Part shown: positions 1 to 9,582 of the stretch, piece after piece
Numbering within the stretch: the stretch's first letter is position 1
Layout of the letters: each line of letters starts with the position of its first letter
Assembly: GCA_025617375.2 (NCBI GenBank)
Contig: JAMYGW020000011.1
Span: 930,001-994,000 of the forward strand
DNA length: 64,000 nucleotides
Direction of reading: 5' to 3'
Source of the DNA: Acarospora socialis
Lineage: Eukaryota; Ascomycota; Lecanoromycetes; Acarosporales; Acarosporaceae
Position numbers and translations under genes: made by a program
Notes under the pieces: generated by a model
The model's input: only the letters and a program-made list of their open reading frames with translations
Database searches by the model: none
What the model was told of the DNA's origin: nothing

Positions 1-3000
1 TTCATGATTTCTTTGAGACTTAACTTCAAAAACTGTGAAATTCCAAACAATTCAGCATCATAGACTTCCATGGTGATTTCTAGATTTCAAGATTGTTAAT
101 GTATAATATCTTTATACATGTAGCAAAGATCTGCACCTAGATTTTCATCTAGTTTTGACTCATCTGTGTACAAAACAGCATTTTTAAACTTGATTTCCTT
201 AGAGAAAAGTGTTTCTAGTCTCTTTAGATGTTCCAAAGTAGCCAGTTTCTTGTCAGATTTGCTGATTTGAATGTCTATGTTTGGTGAAACACTCCAAGGT
301 GCACAGCATAACTCATTTTGAGTTGAAACCTCCAAATTTAGTGTTTCTGGTAGATATTTGCAAATGCTATATAGCACTTTAATCAACTGAGTTGGGTGTT
401 TCTTCTTAATGAGAGAGTTTGAATGTTGATTCCAGTCAAGATAATGATTTTCATCAATATCACATCCAGTTCCAAGTCCTGGTGGGTAGGTGTATGGAGT
501 TCTTTGTCTAATTGGATGATTTTCTGACAAAGTAGCTATTCTTAAAGCATATAGCTCTGTTTTTTGATCAAGTCTAAATCTGGGTGGTAATATAGCTGAT
601 TCTAGCTCCATAGCAGCTGATGATGAAGACCTAAATGCACCTAGAATTTTTCTAGTTGCTGAATTTTGAAGTTTTTGAAACAGCTTTTCAAAATTCTTTT
701 GTTGTTTTCACCATACTGGGCTTCCATAGTCACTTATAGATGTGATGCAGGCTGTGTACAGCTGTTTTCCAGCTGATGTTGATAAACCCCATTCAGAATT
801 CATCAGTCTATGCAGTAAATGCAATGTTCTAGTTGCAGAAGCTATTTTCTTTTGCACATGTGTCTTAAAAGACATTTTAGTGTCAAATCAAACACCTAGC
901 CAGCGTACAACTTTAGAAGGATGTATAACAGTGTTATTTGGTAGTTTTACTGTTGATATAGCTTGATTTCCTTTCTGAAAATGAATGAGTTCTGACTTGC
1001 TGTCATCAAATATAACTGCATTTTCTTCAGCCCATTGAAATGCAGTTTTTGTGACTGATTCTAGTGTTTTGCTGTTGTCTGCAGCTGTTTTTCCTTCCAC
1101 AATAATAGCCACATCATCAATATAGCTTGGTAGCTTTAGTTGAGTGTGTTTATTGTTGATTTTTGTGAATAGAAATCGCATATAGATCAAAAATAGCATT
1201 GATGATATAGGTGATTCTTGTGGAATTCCAGAATTGACACTTTGTGAATGATTTTTTTCACCATCAAAAGCTAAAGCAATTGTTCTATTTGTAAGAAAGC
1301 ATTGCACCCATTTTAGTACAGTTTGTGGTAAATGTAGTCTTTTCATGACTTTTAGCAGTTGATTTAAAGACACATAGTTAAATGCACCCTTAACATCCAA
1401 GAATAAAGCTGTCAAGACTTTGTTGTTATTGATTGCTTGTTGAATGTCATGTGTTAAACACATAGCTGCATCCACAGCTGATCTTTGCTTTCTACCACTC
1501 ATTTGCTCATGATATAGCAAGTCTGTGGTTTCAGCCCAATAGGAAAGTCTTGTTGCCATTATCTTTTCAGATATTTTGCCCAAGCAATTTAGTAGAGTGA
1601 TTGATCTATATGCTTTGGGTATTGAATAGTCTGCTTTGTCTTCTTTTCTTAGAATTGCACCAGTTTCTTGACGCCAGCATACTGAATGATAGCCTTGATT
1701 TATTAAAACTGAATAAACAGTGTGAAATAACTCAGATATAGCTTGATATGCATGTTGAATTATCAAAAAGGACAATTCATCTGGCCCAGGTGCTTTCTTT
1801 GTTGATGAAGTCATAATAGCTTGTTTTATTTCCTTAGAAATAACTGAAAACCATGGTTTTGTGAGACTATTATCACATTCTAGCTCAACTGGACTTGTTT
1901 GAGGTGGTTTTGGAAACATAGCTTCAAGGAACAAGTCACATTTGTCTTTAAATATGAGTCCCACTTTGTTTTCATGCTTTATAGGAGGTGTTTTCTCTAT
2001 TTTTCGTGGTTTAGTGTAATGATATGCTGTAAAAACATCTTTTCCAGCTGCACCTTGCAGAAAAGTAGTCCATGAGGTATGTTTGGCTTTCTGAATTGCG
2101 TGAAAGTATCTATTTCTTGCATTTCTGAATTGATTTCAGTTTTCTTGTGATTTGTGATGTTTTCAGTATCTTCTAAAACCACTCATTTCAGTTCTAAGTA
2201 CTGATAATGATTCAGACCACCATACTTTAGCTTTTGAGCAGAGTTTTCTCTTTGGTATATGCTGATCTGCTGCATTTGCTATCAGATTTCTGAGAGAAAT
2301 AGTCATTTCTTCTAGATTTTGATCTGATAGATGTTGCATTAAGCTTTGAATTTGAACACTGGTTTGTACTGAGTTTATTTGCAGAGTTTCTGCAAATTTA
2401 ACCCAGTCTGCTTTGTCTATATTGTATGATGCACTCAGTGGACTTTCAACCCATTCAGACTCATTTGCAGTTATTTGAAACTGAATAACTTCATGGTCTG
2501 ATCCAGACTCCATGTCTTGATTTACTTGCCAATTTCTGATGAAATTGCAAAGTAAGGGTGTTGCAAAAGTCAAATCAATCACTGATGTGGCATTTCCTGA
2601 GTGATGTGTATAGGTGTTTATGTCTGGTGTATTTAATAGCTCACAGTTGTGAATTTTCAACCACTTTATTAAAGAAGTAGCTCTTATAGAGTTTTCTATT
2701 GATGAATTTCACCATGCATGATGTGCATTAAAATCCCCACAGATAATAGCTCTTTGTGGTAGTTGAATTGCTGTTAAACATCTGTCTATGGTCCATTGAT
2801 CATTGTTGATTTGCTGTGACTTTTCATTGTATATGTTAAGTAACAGTATACTAGAAATTCCATTTGCTGAAATACTGAGTATTTGCAAATCTGAGTCTTT
2901 TGACAAGTCAGGTCTTGGTATACACACTAAATCTTGTTTAGTTTTAGACACAAATGCCATAGTTCTAGGTCTAATATCTAGATTAGATGTGGGTATCAAA

Positions 3001-3179
3001 CTAGTAAAAGATGAATGTGAAATAGTGGTTTTGTTGTCTCTTGCAACCCATGATTCTTGAAGAAGAACTATGTCTGCAGTTTTTGTAGCTGAATTCAGAC
3101 ATGAGTACATGACATTCATAGATCTTGTGCAGTTGTGTTGTAGAATGGTGATTTGTGATGAATTTGTTGTGTTATTCAT
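1..3179 (-). CDS. LINE ORF2: endonuclease / reverse transcriptase / RNase H (partial)
   Basis: This is the LINE polyprotein that nicks target DNA and copies the element RNA by target-primed reverse transcription. The start is taken at ATG 3179-3177, which overlaps the ORF1 stop. The AP-endonuclease domain (about 3150-2480) shows LQHNCTRS, LLQESWV, GDFNAHHAW and SDHEV. The reverse transcriptase (about 1900-880) shows KAPGPDE, TALFLDVKGAFNYVS, GIPQESPISS, the catalytic PSYIDDVAI and RWLGV. The RNase H domain begins with YTDES near 170 and reaches EVYDAEL near 60, then leaves the window. The frame is unbroken over more than 1,000 codons apart from TGA at 2709, 2163, 2136, 888, 708 and 87 and TAA at 96 (lowest coordinate of each codon). 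Conserved glycines in GIPQGS and YTDGS are Glu. Under the standard code this copy is not functional. Confidence 0.87.
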
Positions 3180-4765
3180 GACATTTTCATAGATAGTGGA
3201 TCTGCTGTTGAAGAAATAGGCTGTAGTGCTTTGAAAACACTGCATTCTGCACTATTTGCTTGATGTTTCTCACCACAATTGCTGCATTTATAGACTATAT
3301 GTGCGCAAGTGGTTCCTTTTGACTGTGTGGGACAAAGAAAACAGCCATGTTCTCTAGTATTGTGGTTTCCCGCACAGAATTGACATGTGTCTTGATTTTT
3401 ACATACTTTTTGAGTATGTTCAAACTTTTGACACTTTCTGCATTGATCTGTTGGTTTGCAAGTGTTGTAGACTGCAGTTCTAACTGATGTTTCAGCAATT
3501 ATCAGTCTGTTTCTGAGTGCTTTTTGAGCTTCTTGTTCTGATTTGACTGTCAAGACAATAGATGCATGCTGTTTTTCCTGTCTGGCTTCTTCTGAAGTAA
3601 GTCAGCGTGGTAAAATAGCTAGTTTGATATCTTTGTTGAAGGTTTCTACTTCATCTTTGACTAGTTGCATGTCTTCTTTGCTGTTGAAAATAGCTGTGGG
3701 AATTCCATGTGCTACTATTTTGTACCACTTTTCATCCTTTTTGATTTCTATGAATTCAGATGATGAATTCCAGATTTGTTGATGTTTTAGCAAGTCTTCT
3801 GCTGTGTCTTCACTGGTTGTGAGCACTATACTAGCTTTGGATTGTGAAATAGCAACTGTGGAAACCAGCAAATTGTCTATTTTTGCTGTTTTAAGTGCAT
3901 TGTTGATTTTGTTGCGCATGTCTATGGCATTGATAGTAGTTGTGGGTGTTTTTGACTTTATAACTAGACGTCTTTCTCTGAAAGTAATGGGTTTATCCAC
4001 TACTTTTGACTTTGGTGCTTTTTTTTGAACAGTTGTCCATGAGTTTTGAGCATTTTGGTCTTTGCTGCTTGCAATTGATGCATATGTTGCTGATTTCACT
4101 GTTTTTGTTGATGTTGGCTGTCCAAAGCTGGTTTTGTTTGTCTGTACAAAGTTGATAGGGTTTGTTTTGTTTGTCTGAAAGACAAATGCTGGTTTCTCTG
4201 TGATTTCTGACTTTGTTTTAGACATTGTGTGAAGAATTTTGTCTAGTTTGATGTTGACTTCATCTTTGAAGCTGTCTAGTTGTTGTTGAACATCTAGTTT
4301 CTGATGAAATGTCTCATCTAACTGTTTGAGTGAGTCTAGATTTGCATTTTGTCTTGCTTGATCCAGTGTCTTGATGCTAGTTTCTAGTTCTTGTTGAACT
4401 ATGGGGTTTGTGAATTGCTGAATAGCTTGCTTGAGGTAGTTTCTGGCTTGTTGAAGTAGTTTGTCACCATTTTGACTTTTTGGGTGTAGGTTTGTGCAGT
4501 TTGCATGATGAGTTTCATGCTGATTTGGTTCTTCATCAGAAGAAATAGCTTCTAGCACTGGACTGGCAATGGCTCTTCTCTTTTTAGACTTTAGAATAGT
4601 CTTTTGAGAAGGTTTCATGGTGATTTGTGATCCCAACAGGTCTGGTGAACTCATAAAGAGTTGTGGAAGTGCTGTTTTTGGTGATTTTTGTTGTTTTGTA
4701 GGTGTTTTTGGGTTTTCTAGGTTGAAATCTTGCATGAAGTTGCTGGAATCCAGTGCAAAAGTCAT
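3176..4765 (-). CDS. LINE ORF1: zinc-knuckle nucleic-acid-binding protein
   Basis: This is the Gag-like RNA chaperone of the LINE, expected to coat its RNA. It begins at ATG 4765 (MTFALDSSNF) and runs about 530 codons in one frame to a TGA at 3176-3178. The N-terminal half is Gln/Lys/Thr-rich and probably unstructured or coiled. A central RRM-like stretch follows (around 'RRLVIKSKTPTTT' to 'KLAILPR'). The C-terminus has three Cys/His knuckles: CRKCQKFEHTQKVC (CX2CX4HX4C), CQFCAGNHNTREHGC and CSNCGEKHQANSAEC. One in-frame TGA at 3602-3604 falls in 'PR-x-LTSEEAR', where fungal LINE ORF1 proteins usually have RWL, so a Trp position. The first knuckle has FEH where FGH is usual. The terminal TGA overlaps the ORF2 ATG as ATGA. 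Confidence 0.85.
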
Positions 4766-4852
4766 GATATGAGGTGTTTTTGGGGTCCATCCTGTTCAAA
4801 TCCAAAATCCTATCCAAATCCAGGTCCAGAAGGTCTATGTCTAGCAGTAATT

Positions 4853-4880
4853 ATCTAGTTTTTGAAGGTAAAAACTAGAT
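4853..4880. repeat. Perfect 11-bp inverted repeat in LINE leader
   Basis: The arms ATCTAGTTTTT (4853-4863) and AAAAACTAGAT (4870-4880) are exact reverse complements around a 6-base loop. The repeat lies about 90 bases upstream of the ORF1 start, in the presumed 5' leader of the element, and would fold as a hairpin in the RNA. Its function is unknown; it could be chance in AT-rich DNA. Confidence 0.6.
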
Positions 4881-5480
4881 TTTCCTGAGGTTCTAGATTA
4901 TAGAAGCTTTGGATTCTTATTTCATCTAGAATAGGCTGTACCCAATTGTCTAATCCAGATGTTGCTTAATATCCCAATTCACCTAGAGTAGATAAACTCT
5001 ACAATAGGCTTTTACCAGCTCTACTATAAGCAAGACTATACTATAAGTCACTCAACCACTAGGTCTTGGGGCAGATGCGTCTAGGGCAAGATTTTCACGT
5101 GGAGTCTCATATTTATATCCCAACTACTCAGACAACGTTGTTTGCCAGTCTGAGCTTTTACCAGCAGGTAGGGCTAGAAAATAGCTACCTGCTTATACCC
5201 TTCACTAGGTCTTTGTGAGATGCTTTTAGTGTAGAGTATGTCTTCACTGGTAGGTTCTTTCTGCACACAAAACGCTAATCAATTGACAGAAGAAATGCTC
5301 AAATTCCAGCTAAATTCGTCAAGAAATGGCTATTTTGCGGCTAGTTTTTGCGGAAACTGCGTGCAGTTGCTGGAATTGAGCGATTTGGTGTAATTCAGCC
5401 TGTAACGCTTAGAAATTTGACCTGAAACGCTGGTTTTTGAGCGAAAATAGCTGAAAAGTAGTCGATTTTGTTGATAAACT

Positions 5481-7740
5481 AGCTTGTTTTGATGGTAGAG
5501 CTATGTAAGTATGTTGTATGATGCATGAATTGATGTGGCTTGGTGTGTATAGGCTGGACTTGCTGCGTAGTTGGTGTAAAAGTGGTGTTTTTGGTGTTTT
5601 CTTGGTTGTTTTGGTGTTTTTGGTGTTTTGGTGTGAGTGAGGCTTAGTTGAGGTGTCTGGTGATGCTTGGTGCGCAGAAATTCTGTCAAGCAAGCTAGGA
5701 AAATTAAGCGAAAATTTGCGAACTTCAAAAACTAGATACTAAGGGGTACAACTAAACAGTTCAACAACTTTGTGAGCAATAAAGATATCAAAAAGCAGTA
5801 ATAGTATGAATTTTAGAAGAGATCAAGGTGAAGAAAACTGTTGATTCAGAATTTTTGAAGATGCATTGGTTGTGGTGATGTTGATGTCTGAGATGTTGTT
5901 TTGAGTTTTGGCTGGAGGTATGCGAAAAATTTTCACTGAATGATAATTGAGGTACCCCACCACCAGTATTGATGATGAAGATAAGCTGTTTTGAGGGTTT
6001 ATAGAAGTGAATGAGGCAAAGAATTTGCACTATTCAGAATTTTGATAGCTGCTTTAGTTGTGGTTCTGTGGTTTTGATTTGTGTCTGCTCTTTGATTTGC
6101 GTAGTTTTAACAATAATTTATAAAGTGCATATTTAACACACATTTATCAAAAATCATTGAATATGTGAAGTTGCTGATGCAATTAAAATCTTTTAGTTCA
6201 AGTATTTTTGTATAATTATCAGTGCTTATTGAATCATCTTAATCAGTATTTTAAAAATTAAGATCTATATTTCTTCTCTGAATTTATATTTAGATGAAAA
6301 AGTGTGAATTTATGCTGCTTGTACAAAGAACACAGTCTTTACAGAGATGAAAAATAAAATTTACAGTTTTATCAGAAAAAAAATTAAACAGAAAATTCAT
6401 CAATTTATAACAGTTACAATAGTCATTTATTTCTCTGCAGAACAGACTAAAGAGATTAATTCAGAGAAAAATGTATAAAATGCTTAAACTTAAAAATAAT
6501 ATAACACTGATCCAAAAAAAAATTGATTAAAAGATGAAATTAAGTCACAAAATCACTTTTCAAAAAAATTCTTTAACTTTATCAAAAACTGAGAAAGACA
6601 AAAAGTTCTAAACTGATTTAATTTTGTACAGAATATATAAATTATAATTATTTTCTTTATAAGATTAAGATTTCTGAGATCTCTTCAACTGACTACTTAT
6701 GTAACAAGAAAGTTAAGACTTCTCAATATATACTGTTAGTCTGTGAGAATAGAGAAGATTTATAGCTGCTTATTACTCAAAAAAAAAGAAAAAAAAACTT
6801 TATATAACTACTATCTGTCAAGAAGCTAACTTATAAGACTGTTAAATGAATTGTGTGTGACAATTATTTAAGTCAGTTTCAGTTTATAGTCAGTGTTCTT
6901 TATGACTGAAGATGAGATCACTCATATTTATTTTATTCATTTAACTTTTTACATTGAATTTACTTTTGTACAAAGAATATTATGAGCTTAGATTTTCACT
7001 CTTGTAAGATTTTCTAAGATTTAAACTAAAGAGAAGTTCTACTTAGCACAGCTAGTTCAGTGTAAGAATAATAAGAATAATAATAATGATAAAGTGACAC
7101 AATTTATATTTGTTGATGTCAAAACTAATCTCTGAAGAGTTTATATGCAGAAAAGTCTTTTACTTATAAATTCTCACTTAATTATGCTTACTAATCACTG
7201 ATGTCATAACTGTACTAAAGTATTGTCTGTAATGTTCTGACAGTTTGTTTTTCAGTTATAAATGAGTGAGAATAGACAATACATCAATGAAATTCAATTT
7301 TCTTAAATGCATGCATCATAGTTCTTCAATAAACATTCAGTTTTATCAAATTAATTAACTGTTTAAAGATTTTTTGATGTTCTATTCATTTAGCAAAACA
7401 TATATGAGCAAGATAATGAGTAGTTTAATCACTGGTCTTTTGAGATTAATTAGTATGTTTGTAATAAACACATTTAGTATGTTTTTATATGTTAATTCAG
7501 TACTAAAGTTGATTGAAAAAGATATATCTTGATATTGACTATGTTTTCAACAGTTGATGAAGTAATTTTTATGTCATAAATTTCTTTCAAACACACTAAG
7601 ATGTCATGAATGGTTTTATCTTCATAGTTCATAAAATGAATACAAACACATGTAGAGATGTTTCATTCATCTCTTTTGACTTTACAGAATGATGATGACA
7701 GGAACTTGATGTCTGTCTAGATAGGTGGGGTCTGCAGGCT
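5481..7740. other. AT-rich, CpG-poor, gene-free stretch
   Basis: The composition shifts to long A/T runs with short low-complexity patches, such as a TTGGTGTTTT-like run near 5580-5640 and AATAATAATAATGATAA near 7073-7092. Only scattered short ORFs occur and none resembles a protein I recognise. CpG is almost absent. It is probably decayed repeat DNA next to the LINE, but I see no terminal repeats or coding motifs that would name an element. Confidence 0.6.
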
Positions 7741-7947: not shown

Positions 7948-9313
7948 TCATATGCCCACAGCCTCACGTACTAGAGCCATTGTTTCTTCAGCGCTGGCTT
8001 CTGCCTTGACTGCGCCCTCTGCGGCAACCGCGTCGAGATATTGTCCGGCATCTGCAGTCAGAATCCTTTGATACTCCTCCCGGACTCGAAGCAAGCTGCT
8101 TGAGACACGGTCCGCAACCAATGCCTTGAAGTTCTGCTTGCTCAGAGATTCGAAGTCACGCGCCAAGTCATCGCATGTGGTTCTGCCACCTTCGACATGG
8201 TGCACGATTTCGATTAGATTAGATATACCAGGTCGATTGTGAGGGTCGTAAGAAATGAGAGGCAAGGAGTCTGTAACGGCTAGCTTAATTTTATTAGCTA
8301 TCTCTTCGTGGGTGTCTGTCAAGAGGACCCTCGAACGAGGATCTTGATGCGACTTCGACATTTTCAGCGCCGGGTCCTTGAGAGACATGATTCGCTTCGC
8401 CGGTGCTTTTCGTGTTAGATTAACGTTGACTCAACACTGTGATTGCTTTCTTACATGTCAGTGTCCGGGGCGCGGGAAACACCTTGCCGTAGGCGTGATT
8501 AAAGTTGACGACGCACTCCCTAGCAAACTCCAAATGCTGAACTTGATCGTCTCCCACCGGAACCATTGTAGCCCTGCTGGCCATGAGCAGTCGTGCTAGT
8601 CATTCGGCATTAGCACCTACCGGTGGACCAACACATCTGCCGCTTGCAGAACAGGGTAGGAGAACAGGCCGAGTTTGAGCCTTGCTTTGGCGTCGGTGTC
8701 TAGGAAAGAGGCATCGTCACGCAGCGAAAGCTTGCTCTGTGACAACCACTTTCAGCTACATTGCTCACATCTGGGGCGGAGCACTCATTGACCTTCCATT
8801 GCGTCATACGTGTAAGGTATCCGACGGAGGCAGAACAGGAAAGAATCCACATCAATTCCGTATGGGGTGGCACCTAAGATTCGTCAGACTCATCCCTAAG
8901 CACACAGAATTATACGTTCATACCGCAGACTGGTAGAAGATTGTAGACCGCATGGGGTCTAGGCCAATCGCAAGCATTGTCGCCAGTGTCTCTCGCTTCC
9001 ATGTCCGGAGCTGGTTTGGGTCCGGTCTCGCGGTGAGTGCGTGGAGATCGACGATAGAGTAGATGAGTTTCGTATCGGCAGGTGTGTCATTCTGTAGCTT
9101 GGCCCATCGTCGGAGTGCGCCCAAATAGTTGCCTAGGTGAGGTACACCGGTAGGCTGTATACCCGAGAATATGACCTCATTCTTTGAATTCACCCCTGTA
9201 CTGATCGAACTCTGCTGGCGTCTGGAGCATGGCAGAACAATGCTGGAACAGACATGCACGCGTTGTTGTTGGATACGGCGACGCTGTCGTGCACATTGGC
9301 GAAGTTGTAGCAT
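7948..9313 (-). CDS. MSW1: Mitochondrial tryptophan--tRNA ligase
   Basis: A class I aminoacyl-tRNA synthetase that charges mitochondrial tRNA-Trp. The HIGH-type motif appears as PTGVPHLGNY, followed by GALRRWAK. A later exon gives TMVPVGDDQVQHLEF, the conserved TrpRS core, and the KMSKS loop is present verbatim near 8360. The N-terminus before the core (MLQLRQCARQRRR...) is rich in Arg and Gln and lacks acidic residues, as expected of a mitochondrial presequence. The start is the first in-frame ATG (9313); the longer upstream reading lacks an ATG. At least four introns separate the exons. Good joins are SA|VPPHTELMW, QWK|SKLSL, VLVHR|ATMVP and RTLT|SPAKR. The stop is TGA, showing that the host uses TGA as a terminator. 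The next gene, S10, is also mitochondrial and on the same strand. Confidence 0.93.
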
Positions 9314-9582
9314 GTCTAGCGAATAGAGGGGCGAAATCCACCCTTTAAGAATTGGGGTTTGGCGGGCCCTACAAGCCGCAAATAATATGTTATAGCTCAA
9401 CGATTAACGAAGACTGCCTCGTTAGGAATGAGATACGTATCCTATCTATGTACTGCCCGGATTATCAATGTCACCCAGGAGTAATTGTCAAATTCCGGTG
9501 CCCTGTCCCATCGCAATGCTCTGGACAATGTTCCCATTCAACTCCTTGCGACTGATGCGCACTTTACGGTTTTGGCTGCTAT

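Follow-up and report, generated by a model that had tools for sequence, protein, structure and literature searches.

In the genome of the ascomycete Acarospora socialis, the two open reading frames (ORFs) of a long interspersed nuclear element (LINE) are interrupted by TGA codons, probably in most cases at tryptophan positions, and the question raised by this locus is whether UGA is read as tryptophan here or whether a biased mutational process has passed over the element. The stretch analysed, referred to below as the window, comprises 64,000 nucleotides of contig JAMYGW020000011.1 (assembly GCA_025617375.2, positions 930,001 to 994,000), and the two-ORF LINE, on the minus strand, fills its first 4.8 kb. 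We consider it very likely that the bias towards TGA was produced by a C-to-T process directed at CpG and CpC, and not by a changed genetic code.

In-frame stops of the LINE

Translation of the minus strand yielded seven in-frame TGA codons, one TAA and no TAG, with ORF1 and ORF2 each staying in a single frame throughout, stops aside, and without frameshift, just as had been listed in a preliminary description of this DNA. Its count of about two dozen remaining TGG codons was likewise accurate: 23 are found in the two ORFs and one more lies upstream of the ORF1 ATG. An eighth TGA, missing from the earlier list, is the terminal stop of ORF1 (3178-3176). The features concerned are given below in window coordinates; the premature TGAs were located by translation.

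3179..4765, minus strand: LINE ORF1, with ATG at 4765 and terminal TGA at 3178-3176; Gag-like by position; one internal TGA
1..3179, minus strand: LINE ORF2, with ATG at 3179; endonuclease and reverse transcriptase (RT); interrupted by six TGA and one TAA and truncated at the window edge
3176..3179, minus strand: ATGA overlap of the ORF1 stop (TGA) and the ORF2 start (ATG), from sequence and frames
3602..3604, minus strand: premature TGA in ORF1, PR-x-LTS
2709..2711, minus strand: premature TGA in the endonuclease, HHAW-x-NSS; Trp in TRAS1
2163..2165, minus strand: premature TGA, RRY-x-KHH; Trp column uncertain
2136..2138, minus strand: premature TGA, QEN-x-NQF
888..890, minus strand: premature TGA, WLGV-x-FD
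708..710, minus strand: premature TGA, SPVW-x-KQQ
96..98, minus strand: premature TAA, alone among the eight stops in not being accounted for by change of TGG at CpC
87..89, minus strand: premature TGA, QS-x-NL

The preliminary description had also placed at least six of the seven TGAs at expected Trp positions. For the codon at 2709 this could be substantiated, as the aligned TRAS1 endonuclease (PDB 1wdu) has Trp there; at the remaining sites the columns are taken to be Trp columns from the motifs usual in LINEs, the one at 2163 being uncertain. Six of the seven TGAs thus probably sit at Trp positions, five by such motifs and one by a solved homologue.

Context of C-to-T change

Relative to expectation, the dinucleotide frequencies in the LINE were 0.07 for CpG, 0.59 for CC and 0.86 for GG, with CpA and TpG in excess. 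Third codon positions served to distinguish the effect of mutation from the demands of coding. C was kept over T at these positions in 158 of 280 cases where the next base was A, in 62 of 159 before T, in 15 of 125 before C and in 2 of 146 before G; correspondingly, G was kept over A in 57 of 142 cases after T, in 68 of 326 after A, in 3 of 69 after G and in 1 of 234 after C. The order of loss is therefore the same on both strands, CpG >> CpC > CpT > CpA. Change from C to T on both strands in a fixed dinucleotide context, as expected of a process resembling repeat-induced point mutation (RIP), is seen here in synonymous-site composition and not in aligned copies. A biased G-to-A process, which the preliminary description had offered as its second reading, is supported as far as the bias is concerned, but is better described as both-strand C-to-T change at CpG and CpC, since third-position C is depleted before C and G, and third-position G after G and C.

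Across codon boundaries, CC occurs 15 times in the LINE against 48.9 in synonymous shuffles (z -6.2), and GG 34 times against 41.3 (z -1.8). Supposing that mutation strikes the 5' C of CC, a boundary CC carries its target at a silent site, whereas the target of a boundary GG falls on a first codon position, where a change mostly alters the amino acid; depletion of CC, with GG barely affected, is what mutation together with purifying selection on the proteins predicts. As for the preceding base, third-position C before C was kept in 1 of 42 cases where T precedes and in 13 of 55 where A precedes (p = 0.003); where the preceding base is C or G, the figures are 0 of 15 and 1 of 13. A TpCpC preference is not claimed, as C was also lost after C and G, and what emerges is no more than a weaker effect on ApCpC.

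For comparison we used a set of 26 host ORFs (5955 codons; taken stop-to-stop, at least 150 amino acids, some with non-coding ends). All eight third-position classes lay between 0.48 and 0.69 in this set, and CG across codon boundaries stood at 1.02 of shuffles, which means no CpG loss. All host bins of 500 bp starting beyond position 8000 were at 0.75 or above, and bins within the transposable element (TE) island reached 0. The strong effect lies in the element, with the host genes having a shallow CpC bias and no loss of CpG.

Depletion close to saturation was found in DNA neighbouring the LINE:

6081..7600, no strand assigned: AT-rich stretch (about 25% GC) almost without CC, GG and CG

Three CC, GG or CG dinucleotides were observed here against 66 expected, the minimum of 2000 shuffles being 47, and the GC dinucleotide was as frequent as expected (22 vs 22.3). 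In our reading, this stretch would be an older repeat where mutation of the same kind has run its full course.

Origin of the stop codons

In these ORFs, TGG (to TGA; 23 remaining) and CGA (2 remaining) are the sole codons that a change at CpC or CpG can turn into a stop; changes at CpA can do so from 83 CAA, 19 CAG and 23 TGG (the latter to TAG), and changes at CpT from no codon. Counting the one-step routes from TGG, CAA and CAG, without the 2 CGA codons and with codons treated as independent, TGA would make up a share of the stops of 0.18 under uniform C-to-T change (p = 5e-5 for at least seven of eight) and 0.02 under a tenfold preference for CpA (p = 2e-11). On the same counting, the LINE's own synonymous-site odds give an expected share of 0.70, and the seven of eight observed do not depart from it (p = 0.45). 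An outcome of change at GG away from Trp can, we infer, be seen in the PQG motif of the RT, where L1 and R2 have Gly and the LINE described here has Glu. Among Trp codons followed by A, 5 of 11 are TGA, compared with 2 of 19 otherwise (p = 0.07), which is only a hint of enrichment where A comes next.

In the explanation that we propose, C would be turned into T on both strands of repeats where it stands in CpG and, to a lesser degree, in CpC, while CpT and CpA would mostly escape. The LINE family would have been under this pressure for long, losing nearly all of its synonymous CpG and most of its synonymous CpC while selection preserved its proteins. As TGG, the sole codon of tryptophan, must keep its GG, stops in a copy that escapes selection would be almost all TGG-to-TGA changes. 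The seven TGAs would accordingly represent decay marks on this particular copy, and they stand in the mutator's context as composition reveals it. The likely agent would be a mechanism like RIP or like methylation induced premeiotically (MIP), in which DNA methylation is followed by deamination.

Several points weigh against this explanation. The host ORFs, in 8000-64000, show the same tendency in a shallow form: the share of C kept is lowest before C (0.485) and highest before A (0.69), for G the extremes are 0.484 after G and 0.68 after T, and CC across codon boundaries is at 0.86 of shuffles (z -4.9), so that the CpC effect may in part extend over the whole genome. Depletion is uneven within the LINE island, with values of 0.6 or above in the bins that start at 1501, 1751 and 4501-5501. 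The context odds were derived from the same element that carries the stops, and the direction of change was judged from the composition of this one copy. A different route must account for the TAA at 96. The targeting of repeats, the action of an enzyme and the timing are what we infer, and, in the cited part of a survey of 1,239 fungi, CpA preference is concluded to be common to RIP-like defences (PMC12543289).

On balance, we lean towards a fungal genome defence that targets CpG and CpC, spares CpA and leaves 1.5 kb almost without CC, GG and CG, together with a LINE family that survives by having emptied its synonymous sites, in which Trp codons are nearly the sole route to nonsense.

Alternative explanations

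A strand-specific G-to-A change confined to the sense strand, for instance by deamination of cDNA or by RT error, is improbable. The stops as read are indeed sense-strand G-to-A changes, and the sense strand is rich in A (0.392) and poor in G (0.155). However, sense-strand C follows the same hierarchy as G, and the stretch at 6081-7600, which has no blastn similarity to the LINE, is poor in both CC and GG.

Classical RIP of a fungal LINE, with CpA as the target, is less probable still, and on this point the preliminary description, which had found it not to fit, was right. The element is AT-rich, with a C:G-to-T:A bias on both strands, and TpA/ApT is 1.02 in 4796-6000 and 0.89 in 6001-7700, values that are at or above the cut-off of 0.89 given, along with one of 1.03 for (CpA+TpG)/(ApC+GpT), in the cited part of PMC3828140. 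Against this, no context in the LINE is kept better than CpA/TpG (0.56 and 0.40); TpA/ApT there is 0.70 and hence on the non-RIP side, and (CpA+TpG)/(ApC+GpT), at 1.54 for the LINE and at 1.25 and 1.29 for the flanks, is on that side everywhere. The depletion of CpA and TpG with a gain of TpA that marks classical RIP is absent from the LINE.

A reading suggested by the position of the stops is that UGA encodes Trp in the element or in its source organism, as in a code like NCBI table 4; the probable location of six of the seven TGAs at Trp positions speaks for it, as do the lack of TAG and the otherwise intact frames. We nevertheless regard it as highly improbable. TGG occurs 23 times and TGA 7 times, against 3 NGG (AGG, GGG, CGG) and 66 NGA (AGA, GGA, CGA) among the other codons of this form (Fisher p = 2e-13), and the deviation from the synonymous expectation has p = 7e-26 with codons treated as independent. 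Were UGA to mean Trp, the ratio of TGG to TGA would be near 3:66; the 23:7 found indicates that selection kept TGG over TGA in the history of the family, and the two codons are not interchangeable at Trp columns. UGA is also in use as a stop: it terminates ORF1, within the ATGA overlap with ORF2, and the adjacent host ORF for tryptophanyl-tRNA synthetase (TrpRS) and an ORF with a MIF4G domain both end at TGA. Furthermore, a residue other than Trp, that of the PQG motif, has changed too. The reading of UGA as Trp in the preliminary description was thus not borne out, although a recent reassignment limited to one element would retain a slight probability.

The host gene that bears on this point is as follows:

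7948..9403, minus strand: host TrpRS, bacterial/mitochondrial type; two ORFs recognised, with short introns by reading

The last TrpRS ORF ends at the TGA at 7950-7948, one residue beyond the end of the match, which reaches residue 332 of a solved TrpRS chain 337 residues long. The ORF with a MIF4G_like_2 domain, which we take to be NCBP1, ends in TGA past the domain. Four ORF ends were checked in all, two being TGA and two TAG, and the TAG ends may not be true gene ends. The window yielded no tRNA, and no Rfam family reached its gathering score there. The presence of a TrpRS gene beside an anomaly of Trp codons looks suggestive and is most likely a coincidence.

Finally, restoration of UGA to UGG by A-to-I editing of the mRNA, which has in its favour solely that such editing would yield a Trp codon, is hardly credible, as the A-to-I editing known from some fungi occurs at and favours UAG, and as the TAA and the PQG change would be left unexplained.

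Comparison with known C-to-T systems

The nearest precedent for CpC is found in Rhizoctonia solani AG8, where Table 2 of the cited paper gives the spacing of C<->T single nucleotide polymorphisms (SNPs) in the whole genome as 214 bp for CpC, 370 for CpG, 422 for CpA and 491 for CpT, and in repetitive DNA as 301 for CpC, 490 for CpA, 539 for CpT and 583 for CpG, these figures being distances that are not normalised for dinucleotide abundance (PMC4014442). CpC and then CpG, the two contexts most struck in the LINE, lead genome-wide there, but CpG comes last in the repeats; moreover, as far as the part cited goes, the R. solani changes are inter-nuclear SNPs that affect genes and repeats alike, in contrast to the strong footprint in the TE island described here (PMC4014442). 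According to the cited part of the same source, the nonsense codon that mutation biased towards CpG chiefly produces is TGA (PMC4014442). It is the mutator's context, CpG plus CpC, that we find the interesting part, with the R. solani SNPs, on the data cited, partly alike.

With the RIP-like mutation of Basidiomycota and Microbotryum, the process proposed here shares CpG as the first target, action on both strands and repeats as the substrate (PMC4352252, PMC5381629). The TE signatures named in the cited portion of the former paper are CpA, CpT and CpG (PMC4352252), and the Microbotryum target is stated in that of the latter to be TpCpG (PMC5381629); unlike in these signatures, CpC is a clear additional target in the LINE. 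Classical RIP of Neurospora and other Pezizomycotina likewise acts by C-to-T change on both strands of repeats, but prefers CpA, depletes CpA/TpG and raises TpA, whereas CpA is least struck here. In repeats of Stagonospora nodorum, according to the cited part of PMC2621366, CpC, CpG and GpG are depleted beside a dominant mutation of CpA. Neither a CpC-led RIP signature nor CpG plus CpC as the leading signature of TEs was found in the portions of the RIP literature covered, and either may still be published.

These results take away what had looked like a trace of a variant genetic code, and the trap is a general one: where a hypermutator acts on CpC and CpG instead of CpA, decaying genes will gather TGA at Trp sites and appear recoded. 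A RIP-like specificity for CpC would also escape the common RIP indices, which rest on CpA. The arms race implied, in which an element sheds the target dinucleotides at synonymous sites and cannot shed TGG, is testable.

Structure of the LINE and its 5' region

ORF2, read through its stops, matched the Pfam families PF14529 (E=3.4e-22), PF00078 (E=5.4e-28) and PF03372 (E=4e-9), as well as the TRAS1 endonuclease, L1 ORF2p and R2. It is thus predicted to encode both an endonuclease like apurinic/apyrimidinic endonuclease (APE) and a LINE-type RT, which would make the element a two-ORF APE-type LINE, that is, a non-LTR (long terminal repeat) retrotransposon. A C-terminal RNase H may be present in ORF2, going by a motif, and had no Pfam match. 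ORF1 matched no Pfam family above the cut-off; its C-terminal part is rich in Cys and His and looks like zinc knuckles, a label given by reading of the sequence.

The ATGA at 3176-3179 suggests that ORF2 is translated by stop-restart. Stop/start overlaps of the AUGA and UAAUG kinds are described for other systems in the cited part of PMC5972666. SART1 is similar to the LINE in being a two-ORF element with endonuclease and RT domains and a stop/start overlap between ORF1 and ORF2, but its overlap is UAAUG, whereas that found here is AUGA and is known from sequence alone (PMC5972666).

No direct repeat family representing a second copy of the LINE or its flank was found within the window, the one weak inverted pair (35 nt, 74%) lying in 4833-5757, and blastn at E 1e-3 gave no match among the LINE, the flank and the rest of the window. 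Relatives of the LINE were sought so that the Trp columns could be tabulated; in IMG/VR the search turned up a single pattern match but no relative. A degenerate RT-motif pattern hit 1 IMG/VR contig and 8 GTDB contigs, in which tblastn with ORF2 gave two rows (E = 0.22 and 0.30) at one locus; a second RT motif hit 0 IMG/VR contigs, and tblastn against plasmids gave no LINE match.

Upstream of ORF1 lies a further region that probably belongs to the LINE:

4766..6000, minus strand: presumed 5' region of the LINE, less depleted than the ORFs

Observed-to-expected ratios in 4796-6000 were 0.42 for CpG, 0.83 for CC and 1.04 for GG. With the weaker depletion in 4766-6000, either different parts of the element were affected to different degrees or the region is of other origin. 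A small imperfect tandem repeat with the unit TGGTGTTTT, in about 5.7 copies, is located in this presumed 5' region at 5583-5634.

The amino acid composition of the LINE proteins differs from that of the host ORFs, with Gly at 2.3% (6.8% in the host ORFs), Pro at 3.7% (7.3%), Arg at 3.3% (7.5%) and Lys at 8.8% (3.4%), and Arg is encoded by AGA in 45 of 53 cases in the LINE ORFs. Proteins poor in Gly, Pro and Arg and rich in Lys are what one would expect of a mutator whose influence extends to the protein sequence.

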